Source: a virus
Strand: one strand, 5' to 3'
Length of the DNA stretch: 64,000 nucleotides
Virus record (IMG/VR): IMGVR_UViG_3300027759_006101
Span: 186,001 to 250,000 of that record
Below, piece after piece: positions 4,984-50,355 of the stretch; positions within the stretch are counted from its first letter, which is position 1; the number at the start of each line of letters is the position of its first letter. The translations under genes and the position numbers were made by a program. The notes under the pieces are model-generated. The model had not been told where the DNA came from. It searched no databases and was given only the letters and a program-made list of their open reading frames with translations.

Positions 4984-5559
4984 TTATTTCAAAATTACAC
5001 CTAAATCTTTTAAAACTTTCCTCGAAATGTTAGGAAAACCAGTCATAACTATTTTATCACTCTCTAAAGAAAGTTCTATCTCTTGATCGAAAAATAACTC
5101 TTCCTTGGAAATCTTATTAGAGAAGAAATAAAACTCTTGATTAAGGCTACCTCTAAGAGAATCTTCTGTCTTATACTCTTCCTCATACCGTCCATCAATT
5201 AAAACATCTATATACTCTAAACATTTTTCTCTAAGAGGATTTTCTCGGATTTCATTACGAGAAAATCCAGTAAACAATATAATTCCTTTAGGGAGTTTTA
5301 TTTCTTTTAAGAGAAATAAAAGCTCTAACAATTCTCTCTCTTGCTCTAAAGGATCTCCGCCAGATATTGTTATTCCATCTACCTCGAAATTTTTTATTAG
5401 CTCGAAAATTTGTCTAGGAGAAAGTTCTTTATAAACTTCATAGCTCCAAGTCTCAGGATTAAAACAATTCTTACATCCTTTAGAACAACCTTGAGTCCAT
5501 AATACAAATCTTAATCCTGGGCCATTTACTTTACTTAAACAATAACCTCGAATATTCAT
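4984..5559 (-). CDS. NrdG-like radical SAM activating enzyme
   Basis: A 191-residue protein carrying the radical SAM cluster motif C25-x3-C29-x2-C32 in WTQGCSKGCKNC, followed by FNPETW and a GGDPL SAM-binding motif (67-71). VLIDGRYEEEYK and LRGSLNQ are typical of the anaerobic ribonucleotide reductase activase (NrdG) group, which installs a glycyl radical on class III reductase. No NrdD is in the window, so the partner may lie elsewhere in the phage or in the host. The start at 5559 is preceded by ATTAGAG and TTTCGAGCC elements. Confidence 0.75.
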   Translation of the reverse strand: MNIRGYCLSKVNGPGLRFVLWTQGCSKGCKNCFNPETWSYEVYKELSPRQIFELIKNFEVDGITISGGDPLEQERELLELLFLLKEIKLPKGIILFTGFSRNEIRENPLREKCLEYIDVLIDGRYEEEYKTEDSLRGSLNQEFYFFSNKISKEELFFDQEIELSLESDKIVMTGFPNISRKVLKDLGVILK

Positions 5560-5614
5560 AGGCTCGAAATCTGTCTCCCCTCTAATGATAAAATGTTGAA
5601 GCTAAATAAGAAAG

Positions 5615-5642
5615 ATATTCTTATGCACTAACATAAGAATAT
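5615..5642 (-). promoter_or_regulatory. Perfect 11-bp hairpin upstream of the NrdG-like gene
   Basis: ATATTCTTATG (5615-5625) and CATAAGAATAT (5632-5642) flank a 6-nt loop. It lies 56 nt before the start of the NrdG-like gene and may be an operator or a leader hairpin. Minus-strand bases after it are T-rich, so weak termination is also possible. Confidence 0.5.
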
Positions 5643-5940
5643 TCTAAAAGAAATAGGCTCGAAAATTTGGCCTCTCTAATTGTTTGGGAGATGAAGGTAA
5701 AGATTTATCTTACATAGAATAATACTTATTACGTCCCAAAATTTATAGTTCAATTTAGATTGTTCTCGCTTTTTCTTAAGAGCCCCGATAACTGAGACCA
5801 ATCTTTCTTCTAGTGTGAACAATCTTTATCTATATTAGACCATTCTTTAATCTAATATTTCTTTTTTTTCTCTATGGTAATAATTATTTTTCTCCCTTAT
5901 TAAAAAGCTCGAAATATATTTTCTTTCTTATATAACAAAA

Positions 5941-5979
5941 AATAGATCCCTCGAATTTGAAGGATCTATTTCTTTTTTA
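5941..5979. terminator. Hairpin with T-runs on both strands
   Basis: AATAGATCC pairs with GGATCTATT (5962-5970), followed by TTTCTTTTTT on plus and TTTTTTG on minus. The loop contains CTCGAA. It resembles a bidirectional terminator although no gene ends next to it. Confidence 0.6.
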
Positions 5980-6058
5980 ATAATGGTGTTTTAGGATATG
6001 TATTGTTCTATAATGTGTTAATATATTCCTTCTCTAATAATGTAATAAAAATATTATT

Positions 6059-6096
6059 CTCCATATAGTCTCCACCCTGTCTCCACTCAACCTCCA
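6059..6096. repeat. Four phased 5-mers at exact 11-bp spacing (iteron-like)
   Basis: CTCCA begins at 6059, 6070, 6081 and 6092, with TCTCCAC or CCTCCAC context at the last three. A fifth copy lies at 6145. One-turn spacing places all copies on one DNA face, as in iterons or operator arrays. A 20-bp AT palindrome follows directly. Confidence 0.65.
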
Positions 6097-6100
6097 CTAG

Positions 6101-6124
6101 TATTATAATTTTGTAATTATAATA
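6101..6124. repeat. Perfect 10-bp AT palindrome
   Basis: TATTATAATT (6101-6110), loop TTGT, then AATTATAATA (6115-6124). It immediately follows the phased CTCCA array. It could be a duplex-unwinding element or a protein-binding dyad. Confidence 0.6.
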
Positions 6125-6374
6125 TGTGAATAATGTTATAAGGTCTCCACTGTTTTTATATTTTCTTTTTTCTGTAAATTTTTATGCTCAAAAGGTATCA
6201 AAAACTTATATTTGAGGATAAGTCTGTATTAATGCAAGGTAGCTGATTCATTAAAGGAATATGTTTCTTATATGTAGAAGAGACAAAGTCTTTATATAAT
6301 TTTAATAGTGTTTGATATGCTCGAAAATTGTTTTACTCTAATGGTGTTTATAAAAGCTCGAAATATATTGTTGT

Positions 6375-6521
6375 TTAGTGGTGTATTGTTTTAGTTTGTA
6401 ATATTTCATCTTGGTATAGTAGATTATTAATTATTTTGATTGTTGTTTGTTTTTCTTTAATGGCGAAAAATAATATAATGATGAGAAAGATTAATGTTAT
6501 GTATGGTTTTATGTTTTTCAT
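6375..6521 (-). CDS. Small membrane protein
   Basis: A 48-residue protein (from the Met at 6521) with one hydrophobic segment, PYITLIFLIIILFFAIKEKQ, near its N-terminus and a Lys/Gln-rich tail. This start is preferred over the longer frame from 6578 because it follows an ATTAGAG...TTTCGAGC element like that before the NrdG-like gene. Similarity to a family is not recognised. An opposite-strand frame overlaps it, so it is only moderately certain. Confidence 0.45.
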   Translation of the reverse strand: MKNIKPYITLIFLIIILFFAIKEKQTTIKIINNLLYQDEILQTKTIHH

Positions 6522-6546
6522 TATTTGCTCGAAAATGTTTGTTTCT

Positions 6547-6645
6547 CTAATAGTGTTTTTGAAATTTATATTGTTCATCTATATTGTCTATGATAAATCT
6601 TTCTATATGGAATTTTAAAGATGTTTGTTCTATGTAGTCTAACAT
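6547..6645 (-). CDS. Putative 32-residue microprotein
   Basis: The frame reads MLDYIEQTSLKFHIERFIID and then a Lys/Gln-containing tail. It starts 10 nt after an ATTAGAGAGAA element resembling the one before the gene at 1041, and it stops inside the next ATTAGAG element. Its context is the only support, and such a short frame could be chance. Confidence 0.3.
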   Translation of the reverse strand: MLDYIEQTSLKFHIERFIIDNIDEQYKFQKHY

Positions 6646-6752
6646 TTCTTTTGTTCTCTCTAATGGGTTTTTTAAATTGCTCAGAATATTATATAAGCTT
6701 TTCTACTAATGGGCAAAAAAGAAATGCTCGAAAAGTAGATGGATAATTTAAG

Positions 6753-6758
6753 TAGAAT
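6753..6758 (+). promoter_or_regulatory. Candidate -10 box TAGAAT
   Basis: TTTAAGTAGAATA sits 9 nt before the start at 6768. Nearly the same string (TTTTAAGTAGAATA) lies 9 nt before the start at 9233. The shared element suggests co-regulation of these two tagged genes. Confidence 0.5.
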
Positions 6759-6767
6759 ATATATTGT

Positions 6768-7352
6768 ATGGATAAATTATTAAAGGTTGCAAGTTTATTA
6801 GATAATCTTGGTAGTTATGTTTTATCTGATAAGTTATATAAGATTGCTGAATTGTATATTCCTCCTGTTGAATTTTATGAGGGTGTTGACAAGAGGCATT
6901 ATAATGATTACAGGGCTCCGGGAAGTAAATCTTATGATGAGATGATGATTTCTCGAATGAAGAATATGCCTAAGAATTTATCAGGTACAGCCGTTATGGA
7001 TGGCAGTATGTATCGTGACAATCCATATACTCCGAAAGAAATATTAGATATTAGAAAAAAATTAATCCCTACTAATTTCAGGAATGAGATTAGTCGTTAT
7101 GAGAGTGGGGATAGTGTAAGTAACAGTAGTAATCCGAGAAGTTTTGTTACTAGTTTATTTGAGTTTGGTAGAAAGAATGGGATGAATAATTTGACAGCTG
7201 CTTTTGATGCTTATGCTGATAGTGGTGCAACATATAATAATCAGAGTATAAAGAATATCCCTCAATTAAAGAAATTATATATGCAGATAAAATCTAATCC
7301 TCGAATGTTTAGTGAGACAGAAATTGGAGATATGTTGGAAGTTTTGTTTTAA
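6768..7352 (+). CDS. Tagged hypothetical (probable virion) protein
   Basis: A 194-residue protein of unknown fold. Its N-terminus, VASLLDNLGSYVLSDKLYKI followed by A-E, is closely similar to that of the gene at 9233 (LAEHFDNCGDYELSDKLFKI followed by A-Q), while the bodies of the two proteins are unrelated. The remainder is hydrophilic, with Asn/Ser-rich stretches. It is transcribed from its own promoter and ends at a bidirectional terminator. I infer a virion protein from the shared N-terminal segment; no function can be assigned. Confidence 0.7.
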   Translation: MDKLLKVASLLDNLGSYVLSDKLYKIAELYIPPVEFYEGVDKRHYNDYRAPGSKSYDEMMISRMKNMPKNLSGTAVMDGSMYRDNPYTPKEILDIRKKLIPTNFRNEISRYESGDSVSNSSNPRSFVTSLFEFGRKNGMNNLTAAFDAYADSGATYNNQSIKNIPQLKKLYMQIKSNPRMFSETEIGDMLEVLF

Positions 7353-28975: not shown

Positions 28976-30589
28976 ATGCCAGCAAAACAATTATCTTTCA
29001 ATGATGATGCACGACAAGCTATGGGTCGTGGAGTTGATATCGTAAGTAACGCAGTAAAAACCACATTAGGCCCTAAAGGTCGCAATGTAGTCATCCAATC
29101 ACCTTCAGGGCCAATTGTTACTAAAGATGGCGTAACAGTAGCTAAACACGTAGAACTTGAAGACCCTTATGAAGATTTGGGTGCACAATTATGTAAGCAA
29201 GTTTCCAGCAAGACTAATGATGTAGCTGGTGACGGAACTACTACCGCTACGGTTCTTGCGCAAGCTTTAGTTAATGGTGGCCTTAAATATATTTCTTCTG
29301 GTGGCAATCCAATCAGCGTTAAGGTTGGTATGGAATATGCTGCAAATAAAGCAGTTGAAATTATTGAAAGTCTTGCAAAACCTATCGAAAGCAAAGAACA
29401 AATTACATTTGTTGCAACTATCTCAGGCAATGAAGCTGAAGTTGGACAAATTGTTGCTGATGCTATGGAAGCTGTTGGCAAAGATGGTGTCATTACCATT
29501 GAAGAATCTAGAGGTCGAGAAACATGCTTATCACTTGTTGAAGGTATGAAATTTGACAAGGGTTATGTTTCTGCATTCTTTGTAAATAATGCAGAAAAGA
29601 TGCAGTGTCGTCATTCAGAACCATTTATTCTTCTTTATGATGGCAAAATTTCAGACCCAGCAGAAATTCTACCAATTCTCACTAAGGTAAACGAGCAAAA
29701 GAAACCCATCGTAATCGTTGCTGACAATGTTGACGGTCCAGCTCTTCAAATGCTCGTTATCAATGTCCATAAGGGTGCTATGCCTTGGGTTGCTGTAAAG
29801 ACTCCTGGATTTGCTGGACAAAAGAAAGAATATCTTTATGACATTGCTGCTTTAACTGGCGCCGATGTTATTTCCTCAGAGATGGGAACTACTCTTGAAA
29901 ATTGTACTATTGAAAATTTAGGTAAAGCAAAAAGTGTTATCATCAACAAAGAAACTACTACTATTATTGGTGGAGAAGGTGATGACGTTAAGATTGAAGA
30001 TCGTATTTCTCAATTAAAAGTTACTCTTTCACAAGTAGAGAGTGATTATGAAGCTAGAATGCTCAATGAAAGAATTGCAAAGCTTTCGGGTGGTGTTGCA
30101 ATCATTAAGGTCGGCGCCAGTACTGAAGCAGAATTAGTTGAGAAGAAGTATCGATATGAAGATGCTTTGGCTGCTACTCGTGCTGCTGTTGAAGAAGGTA
30201 TCGTTCCTGGTGGTGGTACAACTCTCTTACGTATTTCTCAACAATTAGAAACTATGAATGTTCTCACTGAAGAAGATGAGAAAGTTGGTTTTGAAATTGT
30301 TAGAAAAGCACTTATGGAACCTATCAGACAAATTGCTTTCAACGCTGGTATTAGTCCTGATGTTGTTGTTGATACAGTGTGTTCAAGAGACAACGGAATT
30401 GGACTTAATGCAAGGTCAGGTAAGTATGTTGATATGATACAAGAAGGCATTATCGATCCTGCTAAAGTCACTCGTTCAGCTGTCCAAAATGCAGTATCAA
30501 TTGCTGTTTTAGTATTGACTACAGAAGCCTTAATTGTAGACAAGCCAGTAACAAATGAAAAGGTCTTAATTCAAGAAGGAAGTTTCTAA
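28976..30589 (+). CDS. groEL: Chaperonin GroEL
   Basis: A 537-residue GroEL. GPKGRNVVIQS, then KDGVTVAKHVELEDPYEDLG and DVAGDGTTTATVLAQAL (ATPase core), the apical region and VEEGIVPGGGTTLLRIS with LNARSGKYVDMI all match the family. The usual Gly-Met repeat tail is absent; the protein ends EGSF. Phage GroELs fold phage proteins, some without a GroES partner. No groES is next to it. It is translationally linked to ruvB, an unusual arrangement. Confidence 0.95.
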   Translation: MPAKQLSFNDDARQAMGRGVDIVSNAVKTTLGPKGRNVVIQSPSGPIVTKDGVTVAKHVELEDPYEDLGAQLCKQVSSKTNDVAGDGTTTATVLAQALVNGGLKYISSGGNPISVKVGMEYAANKAVEIIESLAKPIESKEQITFVATISGNEAEVGQIVADAMEAVGKDGVITIEESRGRETCLSLVEGMKFDKGYVSAFFVNNAEKMQCRHSEPFILLYDGKISDPAEILPILTKVNEQKKPIVIVADNVDGPALQMLVINVHKGAMPWVAVKTPGFAGQKKEYLYDIAALTGADVISSEMGTTLENCTIENLGKAKSVIINKETTTIIGGEGDDVKIEDRISQLKVTLSQVESDYEARMLNERIAKLSGGVAIIKVGASTEAELVEKKYRYEDALAATRAAVEEGIVPGGGTTLLRISQQLETMNVLTEEDEKVGFEIVRKALMEPIRQIAFNAGISPDVVVDTVCSRDNGIGLNARSGKYVDMIQEGIIDPAKVTRSAVQNAVSIAVLVLTTEALIVDKPVTNEKVLIQEGSF

Positions 30590-39723: not shown

Positions 39724-39749
39724 AAACGGAGGGTTTATCCCTCCGTTTT
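39723..39749. terminator. Bidirectional intrinsic terminator
   Basis: AAAACGGAGGG pairs with CCCTCCGTTTT (39739-39749) between convergent genes. Confidence 0.9.
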
Positions 39750-40895
39750 GTATTTTCCACCACTTCTTTTTCTTTTGCAATATTGTTTCTGAGAAAAGCC
39801 TTTTGGATTACTGCAATTAATGCTTCCTTTGTACTTTGTTGACCATCTCTTTTTCATTTTGCCAGTACGAGGAGCATTGTAATCTTTTTTTGCTTCTTTG
39901 AATTGATCAGATGTTTCTACTGGCTCTTTCATAAACTCTTCAAGAAATTTTTGAAAATTATCATAAATAATTTTGTATACATTTCTTCTCATTTGTTCAT
40001 TTTCAGTATGTTGCAAAATTTGTGATATTAAGTATTCACCTTGCCAACTTATATCCTTGAGTACATTAGATGCATTTAAACTCATCGGATCTTGAATAAC
40101 AAATTTTAAAGCTTTTATTATGGATTGCTTATCTAAGAAAGAATATTTTTCAGCAAACTTACTAAATACGGCTGGACTGAAAAAGTCATTTATGTCAGAA
40201 AGAAGTGTGCTGTATTCTTGAGGATGATTGACATTGTAATAAGATATAACGCTCTTTTCATCTTCACCAGTGGCCAATCTTTGGAACACTTCGTAAACTT
40301 GGTCTGGTCGCTTAATTAATGTATCAACAAATTTTGCTACTTGTTGTGCCTTTCTATCTGGAGGCAATCTCATAAATAAATCTTTTTCTTTAGTTGATAA
40401 AAAATCATATACCATCATAAGCATTAATTTATCTGGGCTATCTTTTAGTTTTTTAGTGTCAGGATCTACCAATTGTTCTTTGTATTTACTAAAATAATCA
40501 GCAGCCATATCAAGTATTAGATTGCTTATATAAGGTTTTCTAAAAGTGCGGCCTTTGTCTACTGAGTGTCTTAATTCGTGTTTGATTGATTGAGCCATAT
40601 CATCAATAGTGTCACCACGTTGCAAATCTCTTAATCCAACTTCTTTTGTTTTTGGATCAAATGTTGCTAAAGCTTTATCAGTTCTAATTGGTACAAATGA
40701 AGAAATGTAGTTTTGTAATTTTGATTTTGCTAAATTTTCATTTAATGTATGAAAATATATAATTCCAAAATTAGGACTTACACCAGATTGTAACAACGCT
40801 TCAAGTTCAGCGTCAAAGTCATAATCTTTGCCTTCATTTTCAGATATATACTTTTGTAAATCTATAGTGCCATAAGCAGCAAATTTATACCACAT
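39735..40895 (-). CDS. MWYK-start protein with HExxH zinc-protease motif
   Basis: A 386-residue protein beginning M-W-Y-K-F-A. IKHELRHSVDKG (H106-E-L-R-H110) is a zincin metal site, and the surrounding helix fits a metallopeptidase. The next ~200 residues are helical and unrecognised. The C-terminus is basic (RSGGKYK) with C-S-N-P-x8-C, a Cys-rich basic module. It is last in the MWYR operon. A capsid-maturation protease is one idea, though the motif may serve another function. Confidence 0.55.
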   Translation of the reverse strand: MWYKFAAYGTIDLQKYISENEGKDYDFDAELEALLQSGVSPNFGIIYFHTLNENLAKSKLQNYISSFVPIRTDKALATFDPKTKEVGLRDLQRGDTIDDMAQSIKHELRHSVDKGRTFRKPYISNLILDMAADYFSKYKEQLVDPDTKKLKDSPDKLMLMMVYDFLSTKEKDLFMRLPPDRKAQQVAKFVDTLIKRPDQVYEVFQRLATGEDEKSVISYYNVNHPQEYSTLLSDINDFFSPAVFSKFAEKYSFLDKQSIIKALKFVIQDPMSLNASNVLKDISWQGEYLISQILQHTENEQMRRNVYKIIYDNFQKFLEEFMKEPVETSDQFKEAKKDYNAPRTGKMKKRWSTKYKGSINCSNPKGFSQKQYCKRKRSGGKYKTEG

Positions 40896-41664
40896 CTGTA
40901 TCTGTCTCCAATGAACTAGTACTATAAGTTTGAGGTATTTTCACAGAATCCTTATATTTCTGCGTTTTATTATATGGAAGTCTCTTTAATCTGTGCTTGA
41001 CCATAAAACTATCGGGAGGAATATCGCCACTACCCATCGCATCAAATCTTGCTGGTACAAGTTCATTTGGCATCTTTTTTGATAATTCTTCTCTTTCACT
41101 TCTCGGAGTTTTTTCGTCAATTTTATAGCCGAAAGATTCAGAAGGATCATAAGATTCAACAGGTAAACCAAAGACTGAATTTCTTACTTCGAAAGCATCT
41201 TTGGAATGAACATCTCCAGAAATATACTGTATTTGAGGTTTATGATTTTGAAGAAACTTTTTCATTTCTTGATATAATTTTCTTCCCAAACCCCATTTTG
41301 CTCTTGTAATAGAAGATTCATCAACATCATATCCAGCATTTCTAAGTTCATCAGTCAAATCCATTTTATTTCTATCTGCTGGATTGATTGGTTTTTCCCA
41401 TTCTTCTCTTCCTGGTCTTAATGGATACTCATTCAAAGATACTAACTGAACAAAAGCAGTGTCTGAATAATCTTTGGCTTTAAAATCTATATAACCTAAA
41501 ACTCTACCGTAAAGATTTGCTTTTATAGAGTAAAGGTATTCATTATAGACTTCGATATCAAATTGAATATTTTTTAAGTCAAACGGCTTAGGTTTAATAT
41601 CAGGAAAATCCATATTTATTTGACCAGAAGGATCAACTCTTGTAACTGCTTCCCTGTACCACAT
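40885..41664 (-). CDS. MWYR-start protein with GNAT-like segment
   Basis: A 259-residue protein starting M-W-Y-R-E-A-V. Residues 121-134 (RAKWGLGRKLYQEM) match the acetyl-CoA binding R-x-x-G-x-G/A loop of GNAT enzymes, and HSKDAFEVRNSVFGLPVE matches the final motif. Preceding strands (VLGYIDFKAKD) are consistent. An acetyltransferase, possibly virion-associated, is plausible; no substrate is suggested. It overlaps the next gene by 11 nt. Confidence 0.55.
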   Translation of the reverse strand: MWYREAVTRVDPSGQINMDFPDIKPKPFDLKNIQFDIEVYNEYLYSIKANLYGRVLGYIDFKAKDYSDTAFVQLVSLNEYPLRPGREEWEKPINPADRNKMDLTDELRNAGYDVDESSITRAKWGLGRKLYQEMKKFLQNHKPQIQYISGDVHSKDAFEVRNSVFGLPVESYDPSESFGYKIDEKTPRSEREELSKKMPNELVPARFDAMGSGDIPPDSFMVKHRLKRLPYNKTQKYKDSVKIPQTYSTSSLETDTDVV

Positions 41665-41888
41665 TAGCGCTTATCCTCGTATCTTGGAAATAAATGACCA
41701 ACTGCTGCTTCATATAATACTCTGGAAACATCATCGTCATTAAGCGCCATTTTTCTCACTCTATCTGCCATATAAAAAATATCTACACTATTAGCATAAG
41801 GGAATATATCTTGTAAATGATCTTTCAATGGTTTAGATTCTCCATTGAAAAAATAATACTTAACTTTTCCAGATTCTCTGTACCACAT
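41664..41888 (-). CDS. MWYR-start small protein
   Basis: A 74-residue protein starting M-W-Y-R-E-S, then FNGESKPLKDHLQDIFPYAN and AAVGHLFPRYEDKR. No family is recognised. It joins its neighbours by one-base TAATG-type junctions, typical of this operon. Confidence 0.6.
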   Translation of the reverse strand: MWYRESGKVKYYFFNGESKPLKDHLQDIFPYANSVDIFYMADRVRKMALNDDDVSRVLYEAAVGHLFPRYEDKR

Positions 41889-42529
41889 TATTTATTTTTT
41901 GCCTCTAGATAAAGCTTGATAAATGTGATTTCAATTTTATTTCTTATATCTTCATCATTAGAATATGTTTCTGACAAAAGCATTTCTTCAAGTTTATCTC
42001 TGTCAATTTTTTGACCAGATATAGAACTTAATTCATAAGTAAGATTTGGTATTTTATAAACAATGAAATTTTTAAAATGATCATCTACTGGCTGAGACAT
42101 TTCATTTTCATAAGTTTCAAACCAGTCGCTGTCTATTTGATTAGCAACTTTTCTAAATAAAGGAATAAGTTCTCTTTCTTTAGCATCCAAGTTAATTCCA
42201 TTGTCTACCAATCTTCCTTGCACTTCATCAATTTCGATTGGATGCATATAAGTACTACCTCTTTCCAAAAGGTCAGACAAGAAATCAGCTGGTTTGGTTG
42301 ATTGATTTAAAATTCCCAAAACTGTTTGTTTCAATGGAGGTGAAACACTATCTAAAATTTCAGGATAGTCTCTTGCCATAGCTACTAATGTTGGAAAAAA
42401 CTCAACCTCACTTATCTCTCCGGATTCAATTCTCTGATGTAAATTTGCAAGAAGCGGATGCATTTTTACTTTTGGTTCTTCTATTTCAAAAGGAGGCTTA
42501 GAAGTGTCAATGGCTTTTCTGTACCACAT
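41888..42529 (-). CDS. MWYR-start hypothetical protein
   Basis: A 213-residue protein starting M-W-Y-R-K-A-I. Mostly helical (PLLANLHQRIESGEISEVEF). Around residues 21-55 the pattern 'L-x-x-[RK]-[IL]-E-x-G-E-I-S-E-x-E-F' recurs in the product of 43228-43989 (ADLRAKLERGEISEDEFNNL), so the two share a short helical module. No enzyme motif is seen. Confidence 0.6.
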   Translation of the reverse strand: MWYRKAIDTSKPPFEIEEPKVKMHPLLANLHQRIESGEISEVEFFPTLVAMARDYPEILDSVSPPLKQTVLGILNQSTKPADFLSDLLERGSTYMHPIEIDEVQGRLVDNGINLDAKERELIPLFRKVANQIDSDWFETYENEMSQPVDDHFKNFIVYKIPNLTYELSSISGQKIDRDKLEEMLLSETYSNDEDIRNKIEITFIKLYLEAKNK

Positions 42530-43228
42530 TTAATAATCTCTCCATTGTCTCATAGTAGATGGTTTCTTTTTTCCGTGCATTTCAAATTGCTTGATATCAT
42601 TTTTAAAATCAGCAGCAGCATCAATGTCGTAAACTTCGTCAAATACACCTTTGCCAGTTCTTACTTTAAATCTTATATTTTGAGGTTGCAACAAATGGAC
42701 AATTTCAAATAATTTTTGCATTTGTGTAAATGTTGGAACGTGTACAGCATTTACAGTCATCACCGAACCCATATTGCTTATTCTGATACCTTTGTCAAAA
42801 TAATCGTGAAGAATTTCAGTTACAGCGTCCTCTTGTTCCATAAAAGGTTGTTCAGGTCCAGAATCAAAATTTATTCTTTCTGCATAATCCATTGGGCCAT
42901 AAGCTTTATCTGGCAAGTTTCTGATATTATACTTTTCTGATATTTCTGGATTGTCACGAAGACTTTTACGAGTTTGTTCTAATACTTTATCGATATAATT
43001 GCTATGACTTGAACCTTGATGAATACCTCCAGAACCAGTAAGAATTAAGTGATGATCTCCTTTGGAATGGTCTATTTGATCAACTGGCTGAGGAATATTT
43101 GCTCTGACTAAATCTTTAAAAACATCATCTGGAACACCCGGTTTTTCAACTGGTGTAGGAGCATTTGGTTGTTCTGGTTCCTTTAGCCCAAACAATTCTG
43201 CAAGATCAATAGCAGTTCTATACCACAT
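42530..43228 (-). CDS. MWYR-start hypothetical protein
   Basis: A 232-residue protein starting M-W-Y-R-T-A-I. A Pro-rich linker (KEPEQPNAPTPVEKPGVPDD) follows. The body contains SGGIHQGSSHSNYIDKVLEQ, with possible substrate-binding loops, and ends with a basic tail. The function is unknown. Its start overlaps the previous gene's stop as TAATG. Confidence 0.6.
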   Translation of the reverse strand: MWYRTAIDLAELFGLKEPEQPNAPTPVEKPGVPDDVFKDLVRANIPQPVDQIDHSKGDHHLILTGSGGIHQGSSHSNYIDKVLEQTRKSLRDNPEISEKYNIRNLPDKAYGPMDYAERINFDSGPEQPFMEQEDAVTEILHDYFDKGIRISNMGSVMTVNAVHVPTFTQMQKLFEIVHLLQPQNIRFKVRTGKGVFDEVYDIDAAADFKNDIKQFEMHGKKKPSTMRQWRDY

Positions 43229-43989
43229 TATCTGACCTTAGAAACAAGAATTTTAACAAGAACATTTTCCAGCGCTGTATTTACGTTTCTTTGATTAACA
43301 TTGGCCTCTTCTAATGCTGTAAGAACTTCTTGTTCCGTCACTTGAATATCTTTATTGTAAGGTGAGCGTGAAGCTGCTTCTTCAATCATATCTACCATTT
43401 CAGGCACTCTTGATTTTAAATAATCATCAAAGTAATCATAGAAATCTTGGAATGGAGTTATTGCTCTAATTGCATCATTTATGGTTAAGTTATTGATTGG
43501 ATTTGCTTGAGCAAGATCTAGCAACATATCTCCTGCTTGTCCTGGGTAATTTACATCAACACCATTTTCTCTAAAAAAATCTTCTGCATCATCTTCAAGA
43601 TCTGAAATCCACATAACAGAAGTATCATCTGCGAATTCAGTTGCTTGTTCTAAAAAAGCTCTATCTTGTCCGAAAGTTTGAACACCAGATTCTTGCAATC
43701 GAGTTTGGAAATTATCAATATCTGCAGCATTAGCGACAGGAGTTGCTTCTACCATCTCAATAAAAAGATTGTTGAATTCATCCTCTGATATTTCGCCTCT
43801 TTCAAGTTTTGCCCTTAGATCAGCAAATTTATCTTTTCTTTCGTTTGGGACACTCATACCTAAAGGATCTTGTGAAAAATCAAAATCATCTGTTTGAGCT
43901 TGAACAAATTTAAAAATAGAATCTGAAGTACTATATTTGCCTTGTTTATCTAATTTGTTTGCAAGCTTAAGTAAATTGAAAATATTCAT
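43228..43989 (-). CDS. Tagged hypothetical protein
   Basis: A 253-residue acidic helical protein. The N-terminal segment (NLLKLANKLDKQGKYSTSDS, then IFKFVQAQ) is followed by an acidic region with LERGEISEDEFNNL, a module shared with the gene at 41888. The body is Asp/Glu-rich. No domain is recognised. Confidence 0.65.
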   Translation of the reverse strand: MNIFNLLKLANKLDKQGKYSTSDSIFKFVQAQTDDFDFSQDPLGMSVPNERKDKFADLRAKLERGEISEDEFNNLFIEMVEATPVANAADIDNFQTRLQESGVQTFGQDRAFLEQATEFADDTSVMWISDLEDDAEDFFRENGVDVNYPGQAGDMLLDLAQANPINNLTINDAIRAITPFQDFYDYFDDYLKSRVPEMVDMIEEAASRSPYNKDIQVTEQEVLTALEEANVNQRNVNTALENVLVKILVSKVR

Positions 43990-45008: not shown

Positions 45009-45425
45009 ATGAAACGCTTTCTTAAATTTTGTTCAGATTTGGATGAATTAGGTTATATTGAGGAGTCTGATAAACTTTTTAACAAATATGCCTACACTCA
45101 TAATGAATTGTTGAAAAAGCAAATATTAATTCCATCTAATGTAAAATCAACTGCTACTAAAGCATATGGTTACAGAAATAAAGACATAAAATTTGGAACT
45201 ATAGAAGACATTGAAGTTGCAAGGCAGCTTACACAAAGAAGTTATCTTGAGCTTGATACTGTTTTGAAAATTCATAAAATTACAGCAAAAAAATGGCATT
45301 CTCGTAGTAAAAAAGATGACAATCCTACTTATTGGGAATATCTTTGTTATGGCGGGGATGATGGGAAAAGCTGGGCTGAAAATATAATAAAAATCTACTT
45401 ACAAAAGGAATGGAAAATTAATTAG
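45009..45425 (+). CDS. Tagged hypothetical protein
   Basis: A 138-residue protein. The N-terminal segment (FLKFCSDLDELGYIEESDKL, then FNKYAY) is related to those at 6768 and 9233. The body is Lys/Tyr-rich with HSRSKKDDNPTYWEYLCYGG, a pattern of aromatic residues around Asp-Asp. The last segment has a Trp-rich helix. No family is recognised. The non-coding RNA region begins immediately after the stop. Confidence 0.65.
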   Translation: MKRFLKFCSDLDELGYIEESDKLFNKYAYTHNELLKKQILIPSNVKSTATKAYGYRNKDIKFGTIEDIEVARQLTQRSYLELDTVLKIHKITAKKWHSRSKKDDNPTYWEYLCYGGDDGKSWAENIIKIYLQKEWKIN

Positions 45426-45432
45426 TTTGTAG

Positions 45433-45438
45433 TATAAT
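45433..45438 (+). promoter_or_regulatory. -10 box TATAAT for the non-coding RNA
   Basis: GTAGTATAATAATC begins 8 nt after the stop at 45425. No reading frame follows, so it likely starts the RNA at about 45445. Confidence 0.55.
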
Positions 45439-45444
45439 AATCTT

Positions 45445-46202
45445 GTAAGCAATTTGACAAAAGAATATGGAAATCGGTGGCTTGACGTCGTAAGATAATA
45501 ATAAAGGGATAAAGTAATTCTCTACTGCTCCCGCCAAATAAAATTGGTCAGTCAAGCAAGCTCAATCTTTGTGAGTTTCAAGCACAGAACTTGGAAATAT
45601 GGAATAAGATGAAAGCGGACTTATATACGCTGAATATAAGCCAAGCACAGCATCATCGAAGCCTAAAAGATGAAGAGTAATTATAAGGTTCGAGAAGTCA
45701 CGATTAAGAGCTTTATAGTATGATGAGAGGTTTTGCGGAAGATACAATTTAATTCCTTCCGTTATAGTCTCAAAATCAGGTCTAAATACTTTGTGGAGTA
45801 TTAGGCATTGAAGTGAGTTGTATTCCTTATCCAGGAGCAACAAGATACGCACACTTCTGTAGAGAGCGGGTATAGAATTATTAAAGAGATCGCAATCCGT
45901 TGATAAGATAACAATAATTCACTCAAGAAATAGACGTATCTCGTGTTAGTTGTAAACAATCAAAAAATAAAAAGTGTAATGCAACAAACACTTAAAACAT
46001 AGTGCAGATGCTTAAACATCTAAAATTTCACTTATGTTTAAAAGACTAACATTAGACTAGAAATGCCACTAGTTTAAAAAGGCGATTGTGTAGTTTGACT
46101 GTAAAGTGGATAAGCAAGCAATCTATAAGTTGCGAGTAGAGTAATCTTGCAAACGAAACTACAGGGCTAGAAATAATCTCATTCTAGCCCTTTACTTTTT
46201 TA
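45445..46202 (+). ncRNA. Large structured non-coding RNA (~750 nt)
   Basis: No credible gene occurs on either strand, yet many long-range helices can be drawn. GGTGG (45476-45480) with CCGCC (45531-45535) and CTTGAC (45481-45486) with GTCAAG (45551-45556) interlock as a pseudoknot. Others: CTCA with TGAG (45561/45572); CTTATAT (45620-45626) with ATATAAG (45634-45640); TGATGAGA (45721) with TCTC and ATCA (45768-45778) enclosing CGGAAG with CTTCCG; CTAAATACT (45782) with AGTATTAG (45797-45804); GAAGTG (45810) with CACTTC (45852); AAACATAGTG (45995) with CACTTATGTTT (46029), enclosing AGATG with CATCT. A promoter precedes it and an intrinsic terminator ends it at 46190. Size and setting resemble GOLLD and ROOL RNAs of phages; identity with either is not established. 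Confidence 0.72.
46164..46202 (+). terminator. Intrinsic terminator of the non-coding RNA
   Basis: GGGCTAGAA (46164-46172) pairs with TTCTAGCCC (46182-46190), followed by TTTACTTTTTT. Confidence 0.9.
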
Positions 46203-46245: not shown

Positions 46246-46701
46246 ATGAAAACACAATTTTTATTATTAACATTATCTTTATCTTCTTTGTGTTTTGGCC
46301 AACAATTTGGAAATAATTTTTCACAAAATCCATATTCAGAATCATATTTTGTAAAGCCTAATCAAACTTTATTAAATGCAAATGTAAAACTTAAAAAACT
46401 TCCAGGTTTTGAAGTAAACATTGATAGCTTGCATAAAGGCACAGATTTATCTGCATCAGAAAAACACAAATTGCTGATGGGTTACAATTATAAGTCACCT
46501 ATAGGTACGTTCAATTTTTCTGCCGGGAACACAAAAATGCCAGGATTTGTTGAAGATAAGAAATCACTTTCTGCATCTTATGTACTCAAAAATAAATGGA
46601 GTGATTTTAAATTTTCTTATGAAAATAATAATAATTTATTACCAAACTCTAATAAATTCAGTGACCCTAGATTAGTTGTTTCCGGTTCTTTCATTTTATA
46701 A
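46246..46701 (+). CDS. Exported protein with Sec signal peptide
   Basis: A 151-residue protein. MKTQFLLLTLSLSSLCFGQ is a clear signal peptide. The start at 46246 is chosen because GAGG lies 7 nt upstream; an upstream TTG in frame is unlikely. The mature part has alternating polar/aromatic residues (YKSPIGTFNFSAGNTKMPGF) and ends LVVSGSFIL, as expected of a small beta-barrel or outer-membrane protein. It is the second exported protein of this type (compare 16816). Confidence 0.65.
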   Translation: MKTQFLLLTLSLSSLCFGQQFGNNFSQNPYSESYFVKPNQTLLNANVKLKKLPGFEVNIDSLHKGTDLSASEKHKLLMGYNYKSPIGTFNFSAGNTKMPGFVEDKKSLSASYVLKNKWSDFKFSYENNNNLLPNSNKFSDPRLVVSGSFIL

Positions 46702-46718: not shown

Positions 46719-47612
46719 ATGGAAAAAACACCAGAATACGCATTAGAAGCTGGAATTGCTGTTTGGACTGCTGATAATCAAGATATTGTCAAGTGCGCTC
46801 TTGAATTAGCTACAGTATCAACTAACTTAGGATTAGTTGATACAAATCAAAACTCTTTTATGGGAATTGTTCCTACTGAAGTTTTTGGTCCAGATGGCAA
46901 TTTGATTCACGAATGTTTTTTAAACATCAATCATATGGCTTGGGGATATTTTAAGATTATCATCAAGTCAATTTCTCATTTTGAAGTAATTGCTCCAAGA
47001 CTTACTACTTTCAAGAATCAAATCTTGCTTTCACAACAAGAAGCTTTAGATTTCATTAAAGATCTTGCTACGTCTCTTGATGATTTATATCTGCTTGAGT
47101 CATTCCTTGAAAAAGAAGAAATTCGTGATGCTGAAAAATTACTTGAAAATATGCTTATTGGATATCACGAAGCAGTAAAGCACGAACTTATTTCAATCAA
47201 AGAATATATTTCTAGTTTTCCAGGCAAGATGTATATTCAAAGCACAAATAGTGATGACAAGCAATATATTGATGATATTCCTAATCGTTATGATTTAGCC
47301 TTACAACACCCTGAAAACTGGCATATCGAGTTCTTTGATGGCATCGGTACTACAGAGCAAGAAGATAAGGAATTTCGTAAGAGACTTTCAGAATTTCAGA
47401 AGCTTGAAAATCATTATGCTTGTAGGTTATATCTAGCACAGAAAATTGTGTTAGAATCTAAGCGTAGGTTGACTGTTTTGACAGATAGTGAAGTTCCTGA
47501 GCCTGATACTAGCGGTGAAGTCTTGTATGATAAAGGATTGGGACTTGCTCTTGTTCGACCTGTAATTCACTGTATTGGAATGAGAATAGATTATGAATTC
47601 TTATGTTCGTAA
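46719..47612 (+). CDS. Hypothetical protein
   Basis: A 297-residue, mostly helical acidic protein. Central helices (ALDFIKDLATSLDDLYLLES; LEKEEIRDAEKLLENMLIGY) and a C-terminal hydrophobic patch are seen. No domain is recognised. It overlaps the next gene by 20 nt and belongs to an operon ending with the Fe-S carrier. Confidence 0.6.
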   Translation: MEKTPEYALEAGIAVWTADNQDIVKCALELATVSTNLGLVDTNQNSFMGIVPTEVFGPDGNLIHECFLNINHMAWGYFKIIIKSISHFEVIAPRLTTFKNQILLSQQEALDFIKDLATSLDDLYLLESFLEKEEIRDAEKLLENMLIGYHEAVKHELISIKEYISSFPGKMYIQSTNSDDKQYIDDIPNRYDLALQHPENWHIEFFDGIGTTEQEDKEFRKRLSEFQKLENHYACRLYLAQKIVLESKRRLTVLTDSEVPEPDTSGEVLYDKGLGLALVRPVIHCIGMRIDYEFLCS

Positions 47613-48300
47613 AGATTATGCCAGAAAAACCAGCAACAAATACTCTCAGGCTCAACTTGATGTAGCAGGTAAATATTGCACAAAAATTATTTGCCTGTAT
47701 TTATTTAAAGAAATTGCGCCTGAATACACACTTGACTTGACTGAAAAATATATTTTTGGTGACATTATAACTCGTACAAATGATAAGTTTGTCCGAGCAA
47801 GTGAGAGTGAATGCAAGGGTACTAAGTTGTTTGATATGGTTTGGAATCTCAAATGGGAGCCAAACCTATTGAAAAAGAAAGGCTTAGAACAATTTAGCTC
47901 TATTTTTAAGACTGATGTTACAGGAAGTGTGGAAGTTTTAGATTATTCAAAAATAACTCAAACTTCAATATACACTGGACATAGACTTTCAAAACCAGAA
48001 GATATATTTGAATTTTATCATTTCCTCTTTCCTTTAGAAGAAGCAATGGAATGTATGAATAATAAAACTTTTCCCTCAAGGTTTATTTATTGGAAGTTGA
48101 ATCCTGAAATTTACGGACTTCAATATAAAGAAGAAATTTCATCTGATGCTGATGGAAATAAATTTAAGGAACTCAAATCCAAAGTTCCATTGAAGTATAT
48201 TGAAAGAATTACATTTAATTCTGACACAGGTAAATTTACAAGATTAGAAAAATATAAGACATACACTAAGAATGATGGAAACTTAACATATGAATATTAA
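47593..48300 (+). CDS. Hypothetical protein
   Basis: A 235-residue protein with a positively charged N-terminus (RKDYARKTSNKYSQAQLDVA). The middle has helical segments with WNLKWEPNLLKKKGLEQF. No domain is recognised. It overlaps the IscA-type gene by 11 nt, so the three genes 46719-48661 form one unit. Confidence 0.6.
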   Translation: MNSYVRKDYARKTSNKYSQAQLDVAGKYCTKIICLYLFKEIAPEYTLDLTEKYIFGDIITRTNDKFVRASESECKGTKLFDMVWNLKWEPNLLKKKGLEQFSSIFKTDVTGSVEVLDYSKITQTSIYTGHRLSKPEDIFEFYHFLFPLEEAMECMNNKTFPSRFIYWKLNPEIYGLQYKEEISSDADGNKFKELKSKVPLKYIERITFNSDTGKFTRLEKYKTYTKNDGNLTYEY

Positions 48301-48661
48301 AATTACAGACAAAGCAGCCGAATTAGTGAAAGATTCTATATCTCAAATTGAAACAGATGATCCACATCTCTACTTTTATGTAGCTGGAGGAGGTTGCTCT
48401 GGGCTTCAATACGGATTGGCTGTCTCTGAAGGTGAGCCGGAAATTGACGACATTATTGTTTATGACAATGATATCAAAATTGTAGTTGATGCAAAATCAG
48501 CAAAATATCTTGATGGTGCAATTATATGCTACAAAGAAGATGGATTGATGTCAGGATTCAAGATTGAAAATCCTAATGCTGAAAAGAGTTGTGGTTGTGG
48601 CAGTTCTTTTTCAGTTGACGGAGAAACTTATGACTCTTGTGGTGGCTGTGGATATAAGTAA
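48290..48661 (+). CDS. iscA: A-type iron-sulfur cluster carrier (IscA/ErpA family)
   Basis: A 123-residue protein. FYVAGGGCSGLQYG contains the first ligand Cys36 and CGCGSSF the second pair (C101, C103), the three-cysteine signature of A-type carriers. It hands [Fe-S] clusters to apo-proteins. Extra C-terminal Cys residues (DSCGGCGYK) go beyond the family. The radical SAM protein at 4984 is one possible client. Next to the SOD and Dps-like genes it suggests iron and oxidative protection. Confidence 0.88.
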   Translation: MNIKITDKAAELVKDSISQIETDDPHLYFYVAGGGCSGLQYGLAVSEGEPEIDDIIVYDNDIKIVVDAKSAKYLDGAIICYKEDGLMSGFKIENPNAEKSCGCGSSFSVDGETYDSCGGCGYK

Positions 48662-48873: not shown

Positions 48874-49247
48874 TACATCATTTTCAAACGATATTTTGTC
48901 TGATTTAAGATAGCAAGCATTTCATCTTTGATATTTAATAAATCAGTATCAGAATTTGAGTCTAATGATTGAGGAAGATAATTTATAAAATATTCAACTG
49001 CTTCATCGATAAATACATTGTAATCATCAGATAAATTTTCAAGATTTACAACAAAACCATTCTTGCCCATCAAAGCGCCATTCTTACCTTGAAAAACTTC
49101 TATGAAATCATCAATAAGTGGGTCAAGTGCTTCATAAGCTTTTCCGAATGCCTCGTGTTGAGCAAAAGAACCTGGCTTCTTTTGTGTTTGCCAATGATAA
49201 ACTCTAAACTGATTCTGTATTGTTAAAAGATTTGTAATTATATTCAT
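48873..49247 (-). CDS. Dps/ferritin-like protein (DUF5856 type)
   Basis: A 124-residue helical protein. The N-terminal pattern QNQFRVYHWQTQKKPGSFAQ, then HEAFGKAYEALDPLIDDFIE, matches Dps-like proteins, with H-W and H-E-x-F residues near the expected metal-binding interface. It may bind iron and limit oxidative damage to DNA. It overlaps the SOD gene by 4 nt, so both are made together. Confidence 0.65.
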   Translation of the reverse strand: MNIITNLLTIQNQFRVYHWQTQKKPGSFAQHEAFGKAYEALDPLIDDFIEVFQGKNGALMGKNGFVVNLENLSDDYNVFIDEAVEYFINYLPQSLDSNSDTDLLNIKDEMLAILNQTKYRLKMM

Positions 49248-49909
49248 TTGTAACTCTCCAAGGTTTCATTGACAAAATCCCAATTAATTAAGTTAACCCA
49301 TTTTTTTAAATATTTTTCTCTATCATTTTGATATTTTAAATAGTAAGCGTGTTCCCATAAATCACATCCGATTAATGGTTTGCCGCATTCTTCTATATAT
49401 GGATTGTTTTGATTTGCCATTGAAGACAGTTTTAGATTTCTACCATCTTCAGTGCATAACCAAACCCAACCAGAACCAAAATGATCCATTCCTGTTTTGA
49501 TAAATTCTATTTTAAACTTATCAAGTGACCCAAACTTCTTGTCAATAAGATTTTTTATAGCGCCAGAGTAGACAGGCTTTTCAGTAGTCATTACATTCCA
49601 GAAGAAAGAATGATTGAAATATCCACCAGCATTATTCTTAAACTTTTCTCTATCTTTTGCTGGAATCTTATTTAAATCTGACATTAATTCGACTAATGAA
49701 TTCTTTTGTAATTTTGAGTTTTCATCAACAATGCTCATCATATTATCAAAATATTTTTTCTGATGCTTTGTGTGATGAATTTTCATTGTTTCTGCGTCAA
49801 TTACAGGTTCTAGAAAAGAATATTCGTATGGTAATTTTTGGAATTCAAAACCGTTTGATTCTACTTTTTCTTTTTTTGATGAAAGTATTACAGTATTAGT
49901 TATAAACAT
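49244..49909 (-). CDS. sod: Iron/manganese superoxide dismutase
   Basis: A 221-residue protein. All four metal ligands are seen: H45 (IHHTKH), H100 (GGYFNHSFFW), D183 and H187 (DLWEHAYYLKY). FGSGWVWL and GCDLWEHAYY are family-wide. It has a ~20-residue N-terminal extension. It converts superoxide to peroxide and oxygen. SOD in a phage is rare, and its coupling to a Dps-like gene points to defence against oxidative burst in the infected cell. Confidence 0.92.
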   Translation of the reverse strand: MFITNTVILSSKKEKVESNGFEFQKLPYEYSFLEPVIDAETMKIHHTKHQKKYFDNMMSIVDENSKLQKNSLVELMSDLNKIPAKDREKFKNNAGGYFNHSFFWNVMTTEKPVYSGAIKNLIDKKFGSLDKFKIEFIKTGMDHFGSGWVWLCTEDGRNLKLSSMANQNNPYIEECGKPLIGCDLWEHAYYLKYQNDREKYLKKWVNLINWDFVNETLESYK

Positions 49910-50355
49910 TATCCACCCTGGACAAACACATTGTAATTACCTCTTTCATTTGGTTGATTACTCCATTGTAATTGTAAAACACCCTGATAAGAAGTTAAGT
50001 TATTAAATGCGCTTGTATTTGCTGCGCCTTGTTTGCACGATAGAATAAAGTTGCCCGGATTTACACCATTTCTAGCAGCCCACTCATTAAAGTTTTCTTC
50101 TGTGCCCATATCATTATTCTGCCCACTTAGAAAAAACTTTCCATTTTGGTCAACATTTCCGTGAACTATACTGACCATTTTCCCAGTAGTAACATCACGA
50201 ACAGTTACAGGCGCACCAGTTGTTTTGAACTGCTGAAGCTTTGGTAAATCTGCTTGAGAAATTTCTATACCCTGTCCACCACCTGAAATGGTTGATGGAT
50301 TAGAAGTAGTTGTCAAATTTTGTAAAGGCTGAGCTTGAGAATATCTGTACCACAT
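49909..50355 (-). CDS. MWYR-start small protein
   Basis: A 148-residue protein starting M-W-Y-R-Y-S-Q-A. A Ser/Thr/Asn/Gln-rich, Gly-containing body (GGGQGIEISQADLPKLQQFK) suggests beta structure or a virion accessory. No family is recognised. It overlaps the SOD stop by a base, so it is translationally linked with it. Confidence 0.6.
   Translation of the reverse strand: MWYRYSQAQPLQNLTTTSNPSTISGGGQGIEISQADLPKLQQFKTTGAPVTVRDVTTGKMVSIVHGNVDQNGKFFLSGQNNDMGTEENFNEWAARNGVNPGNFILSCKQGAANTSAFNNLTSYQGVLQLQWSNQPNERGNYNVFVQGG

Follow-up and report, generated by a model that had tools for sequence, protein, structure and literature searches.

What does a huge phage carry in roughly 755 nt of DNA that lie between complete genes? 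The stretch analysed here (the window, 64,000 nt) covers positions 186001-250000 of a 358,269-base huge-phage record, and the interval in question is 45445-46200 on its + strand, a predicted transcript whose ends are placed by a promoter and a terminator. A preliminary description made from the sequence of the window had taken it for a non-coding, highly structured RNA of about 750 nt. That view was confirmed by comparison with shuffled sequences, by the finding of a homologue and by two-sided changes above expectation, and on this comparative evidence the interval is almost certainly a conserved structured RNA. The accompanying statement that no credible coding frame is present was likewise borne out by stops, codon-position counts, indels and the homologue. 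On the sense strand, runs without a stop reach at most 55 codons, and the one longer frame, on the minus strand (45562-45852), is interrupted by stops in the homologue and shows substitutions distributed 28/30/25 over the codon positions, with no bias. Indels between the two sequences measure 2, 1, 10, 3, 4, 2, 1, 4, 1 and 2 nt, mostly non-multiples of three, and on these combined grounds protein coding was rejected. The G+C content had been said to exceed that of the flanking genes, which is true though the difference is small (34.7% versus 30.7% and 31.6%).

The comparison depends on a single relative. Related records were collected with the phage's terminase gene, and among 70 searched of the best 80 of 178 terminase-bearing records the RNA was found only in IMGVR_UViG_3300032245_001860 (315,852 bases; G001, the record of the window being G000). 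This homologue is full-length: it aligns with query positions 14-760 at 72% nucleotide identity (E 6.3e-105). Gene order around the RNA is largely the same in the two phages, their common proteins are about 30 to 87% identical (mostly 40-65%), and the closest shared gene upstream of the RNA is 45% identical in G001. The downstream neighbour gene was found in G001 only, among 23 of the related records and one other contig; most of these fragments therefore probably fail to extend as far as the locus, so that the absence of the RNA from them carries little information. Single-protein searches for relatives through the flanking proteins came back empty and an alignment search returned only the same phage, while a second neighbour gene retrieved one more contig, which stops short of the RNA locus. 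A third copy was sought by scanning viral and genome collections for conserved-motif patterns, which gave G001 and chance matches only, and by running a covariance model of the core against 18 records (four of them 485-735 kb long, and one of them ICP1), which gave only the two known copies. Short blastn matches to other phages in the phage collection were judged to be chance, and we found no prior description of this RNA in the open-licence literature.

Several measures indicate that the fold is conserved between the two sequences. The minimum free energy of the window RNA is -176, compared with -152 +/- 7.7 for shuffled sequences (z -3.2, better than 20 of 20 shuffles), and the G001 homologue alone gives z -3.5; the two-sequence consensus fold reaches z -10.7 to -12.3. 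With a sequence-only alignment and column shuffles the consensus z is -10.7 and two-sided pair changes number 37 versus 15.1 +/- 2.6, and five coding controls of 69-78% identity, given the same treatment, yield z values between 0.0 and -2.2, and their two-sided counts are close to those expected. The complement strand scores z -9.6, weaker than the sense strand; a structured RNA is expected to leave such a signal on its complement. Our model of the fold contains 144 pairs in 24 helices, with 99.3% of cells paired, 32 two-sided and 5 one-sided changes and 2 broken pairs, figures that are biased because the model was picked on the same alignment as its test; shifting partners by 1-3 columns leaves only 0-3 two-sided changes. 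A less biased test, using the fold of the window sequence only, gives 31 two-sided changes versus 18.2 +/- 2.9, the maximum in 2000 permutations being 28. Watson-Crick stems of at least 7 bp with a two-sided change number 5 versus 0.08 expected, and in the best single helix (45735-45741/45756-45762) 6 of 7 pairs are swapped on both sides. Hairpin loops stay constant while the sequences of their stems change. The preliminary description had proposed gathering homologues and examining the covariation of the helices, and with the one homologue covariation is present both in the 24-helix model and in the window-only fold.

The model divides the RNA into successive parts, all on the + strand. The 5' domain (45474-45557) holds the invariant UCGGUGGCUUGAC, helices 45481-45486/45551-45556 and 45506-45509/45529-45532, and a GNRA hairpin at 45487-45496 whose GUAA is replaced by GUGA in the homologue. 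It is followed by a multi-helix domain (45560-45678) with a closing helix, 45560-45570/45666-45678, that has 5 two-sided changes, and two hairpins (45576-45596 and 45620-45640) with 1 each. Next come a 12-bp hairpin at 45680-45719 (3 two-sided changes; loop core AGUCACG invariant), a stacked stem-loop at 45721-45778 whose inner helix is the best-supported one cited above, and a 9-bp hairpin at 45780-45806 (2 two-sided changes). The near-invariant core (45806-45875), identical at 68 of 70 nt, contains helices 45810-45815/45852-45857, 45817-45820/45838-45841 and 45824-45827/45833-45836. Within 45943-46052 the closing helix 45943-45950/46045-46052, with 2 two-sided changes, encloses an A-rich variable insert (45951-46044) of about 44-58% identity to the homologue. 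A hairpin at 46056-46073 (invariant loop AAAUGCCA, 1 two-sided change) precedes the 3' domain (46090-46162), whose helices 46090-46096/46156-46162, 46114-46118/46146-46150 and 46122-46126/46136-46140 carry 5 two-sided changes in total, the last of them closing the invariant loop AAGUUGCGA.

The RNA had also been credited with a pseudoknot, and one does covary, although not the one that was named. Helix 45843-45849/45935-45941 (span 45843-45941; AGAUACG/CGUAUCU, in the homologue AGAUAUG/CAUAUCU) is one of the five long stems counted above. It has 1 two-sided change, at a pair that falls in an almost invariant region, and is a pseudoknot because its 5' strand is enclosed by helix 45810-45815/45852-45857. 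The pairing originally put forward, GGTGG 45476-45480/CCGCC 45531-45535 crossing CTTGAC 45481-45486/GTCAAG 45551-45556, is formable in the window and is a possible pseudoknot; its bases hardly vary, so that covariation is silent for or against it, and the pair C45486-G45551 is lost in G001. Another of those five stems, the 7-bp candidate helix 45502-45508/46188-46194 (UAAAGGG/CCCUUUA) with one two-sided change, overlaps the 3' arm of the terminator and could be a closing helix, an antiterminator-like alternative pairing or chance. The invariant blocks 45518-45525 and 45859-45866 are complementary over 8 nt (UUCUCUAC/GUAGAGAG) with no variation, and might pair as a long-range or intermolecular contact. 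The two sequences have no self-complementary 6- or 8-mer in common, which gives no backing for symmetric kissing loops and is still compatible with other contacts.

Both ends of the predicted transcript had been anticipated, and both are supported. The sigma-70-like promoter at 45411-45438 on the + strand (TGGAAA-16-TATAAT) predicts a start near 45445. Since a scan of the window finds 15 promoter-like sites versus 8.2 +/- 3.0 expected, the match is weak from the window alone; the argument for a promoter is instead its position kept in the homologue, where a perfect TTGACA-16-TATAAT stands at the aligned place. The intrinsic terminator (46164-46200, + strand) consists of hairpin 46164-46172/46182-46190, with 3 two-sided changes that are compensatory, and a U-rich tail; a simple terminator scan skipped the hairpin, whose 9-nt loop exceeds the scan's maximum of 8.

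What such a unit might do can be narrowed to some extent. The product is very probably a free trans-acting RNA. The overall account that we prefer, with slightly less than even confidence, is an autonomous trans-acting RNA gene of a huge-phage clade that serves as a scaffold or as an assembling particle; a scaffold or assembly role, taken by itself, is suggested tentatively, by analogy with other large phage RNAs. A sigma-70-type polymerase holoenzyme would transcribe the free RNA, which would fold into a compact tertiary structure and act in trans, as is thought for GOLLD and ROOL. It might self-assemble or bind the ribosome, tRNA or a phage protein, as opposed to controlling one neighbouring gene, and the invariant loops on changed stems (AAAUGCCA, AAGUUGCGA, AGUCACG, AUCUCA and the GNRA loop) may be its contact surfaces. 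Nearly as likely as the scaffold or assembly role is another trans-acting function: the RNA could be part of a ribonucleoprotein (a packaging or virion RNA, for example, of the same kind as the phi29 pRNA), or it could be a ribozyme, or act as a regulator or decoy of a host factor. Such functions would fit a stand-alone RNA with conserved loops, situated between minus-strand gene blocks that include tagged, possibly virion, proteins. Against them, the RNA matches no known ribozyme or ribonucleoprotein RNA, and a non-exhaustive Pfam survey of the adjacent genes gave no RNA-guided nuclease, reverse transcriptase or obvious partner.

An unlikely alternative is that the RNA acts in cis as a leader, in the form of a very large riboswitch or attenuator, with its terminator controlling 46246-46701 or 46719-47612. 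The arrangement has features that would suit it: the terminator ends about 50 nt before the start codon of the gene directly downstream in the window (an exported protein, 46246-46701), the candidate helix 45502-45508/46188-46194 could compete with the terminator's 3' arm, and gene 46719-47612 is retained downstream of the RNA in both phages. In G001, however, the RNA is directly flanked by a 245-aa gene on its upstream side and a 283-aa one downstream, both unlike those of the window, the latter methyltransferase-like on our reading of its sequence. Although neither adjacent gene is the same in the two phages, promoter, RNA and terminator all persist, a pattern that favours an independent RNA gene over a leader serving a single gene downstream. 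Usual leaders are also far shorter than 755 nt of structure conserved throughout. Thus 45445-46200 looks like an autonomous RNA gene rather than a leader, with expression predicted.

If the RNA acts on its own, it is natural to ask whether it belongs to a family already described. No Rfam model, including those of GOLLD, ROOL, tmRNA and introns, matches it; when the record, window included, was scanned up to its last ~28 kb and both RNAs were scanned permissively, only tRNAs and chance matches came back. A tmRNA or self-splicing intron, identities that the preliminary description had considered incompatible with its reading, was rejected because ARAGORN and Rfam are negative and the RNA lies between complete genes, none of them interrupted. 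A divergent GOLLD or ROOL member, which had been offered beside a new class, is very improbable. GOLLD is often near tRNA genes, a common but not strictly defining setting, and there is no tRNA inside the window, the nearest one in the record being ~55 kb from the RNA. GOLLD (RF02032) is like the window RNA in being phage-borne and non-coding, at about 800 nt, with many helices, a variable linker region and a function that is unknown; ROOL (RF03087) is likewise phage-borne, has a length of about 600 nt and contains pseudoknots as well as a variable linker. Unlike either, the window RNA fails their covariance models and has no tRNA genes nearby. The GOLLD model (conserved 3' region, 416 positions) matched neither G000 nor G001 at E<=10, with control genomes giving only sub-threshold matches; the ROOL model (574 positions) also matched neither of them at E<=10, in a search without a positive control, and neither model matched the RNAs themselves with permissive filters. 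The failure of the GOLLD model weighs against membership, since universal conservation has been described for the 3' region of that family (PMC12286853). A divergent member would nonetheless fit the size, the phage setting, the pseudoknot and the variable internal insert, GOLLD and ROOL forming RNA cages with variable or disordered linkers (PMC12286853).

Long phage RNAs outside these two families offer a further comparison. Vibrio phage ICP1, which has no tRNA genes, makes an unclassified ~800-nt transcript (PMC7567579) that the window RNA resembles, and phage K has lncRNAs (PMC9241854); neither has blastn similarity to the window RNA in the phage collection, and ICP1 also fails the core covariance model. 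By size, non-coding character, conserved multi-helix fold, pseudoknot and phage setting the RNA falls among the large ornate phage RNAs, a grouping by function and not by homology. These comparisons support a new family within a known kind of large phage RNA; of the earlier pair of proposals, the new class stands and GOLLD or ROOL does not, there being no model match and no adjoining tRNA genes. Perhaps this undescribed family, sequence-unrelated to GOLLD and ROOL and of separate origin, builds an assembly of its own, made of RNA only or of RNA and protein, in cells infected by huge phages. Finally, that AT-rich intergenic sequence was over-read by folding is scarcely credible, since the single-sequence z of only about -3 that would allow it is outweighed by the compensatory changes and all comparative tests.

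Few phage RNAs of such size and complexity are known. GOLLD and ROOL are RNA-only cages, a 14-mer and an 8-mer respectively, whose purpose is unknown, and a further, apparently unrelated family would be a separate test of whether RNA assemblies are a general phage strategy. The defined ~755-nt construct can be made and imaged directly.

Other features of this phage were recorded alongside. The 5394-6733 region is marked by an AT-rich, nearly ORF-less 1.2-kb stretch (5560-6767). Most copies of GCTCGAAA in the window, 8 of 11 (0.95 expected), lie there; all 11 are on the + strand, and some are followed about 10-15 nt on by CTCTAAT. These repeats are possibly regulatory or promoter elements, and the region has no match in five related records. 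At least 12 otherwise different phage proteins (at 39735-43228, at 49909-50355 and at other places in the record) begin with MWY[RKS], and a second N-terminal motif, L..iA..LD..g.y..sD.l, was recognized by eye (e.g., at 6768, 9233, 43228-43989 and 45009); the two could be targeting or prohead-delivery tags. The window also encodes a GroEL-like chaperonin (28976-30589), a protein read from its sequence as IscA/HesB-like (48290-48661), and an iron/manganese superoxide dismutase (49244-49909).
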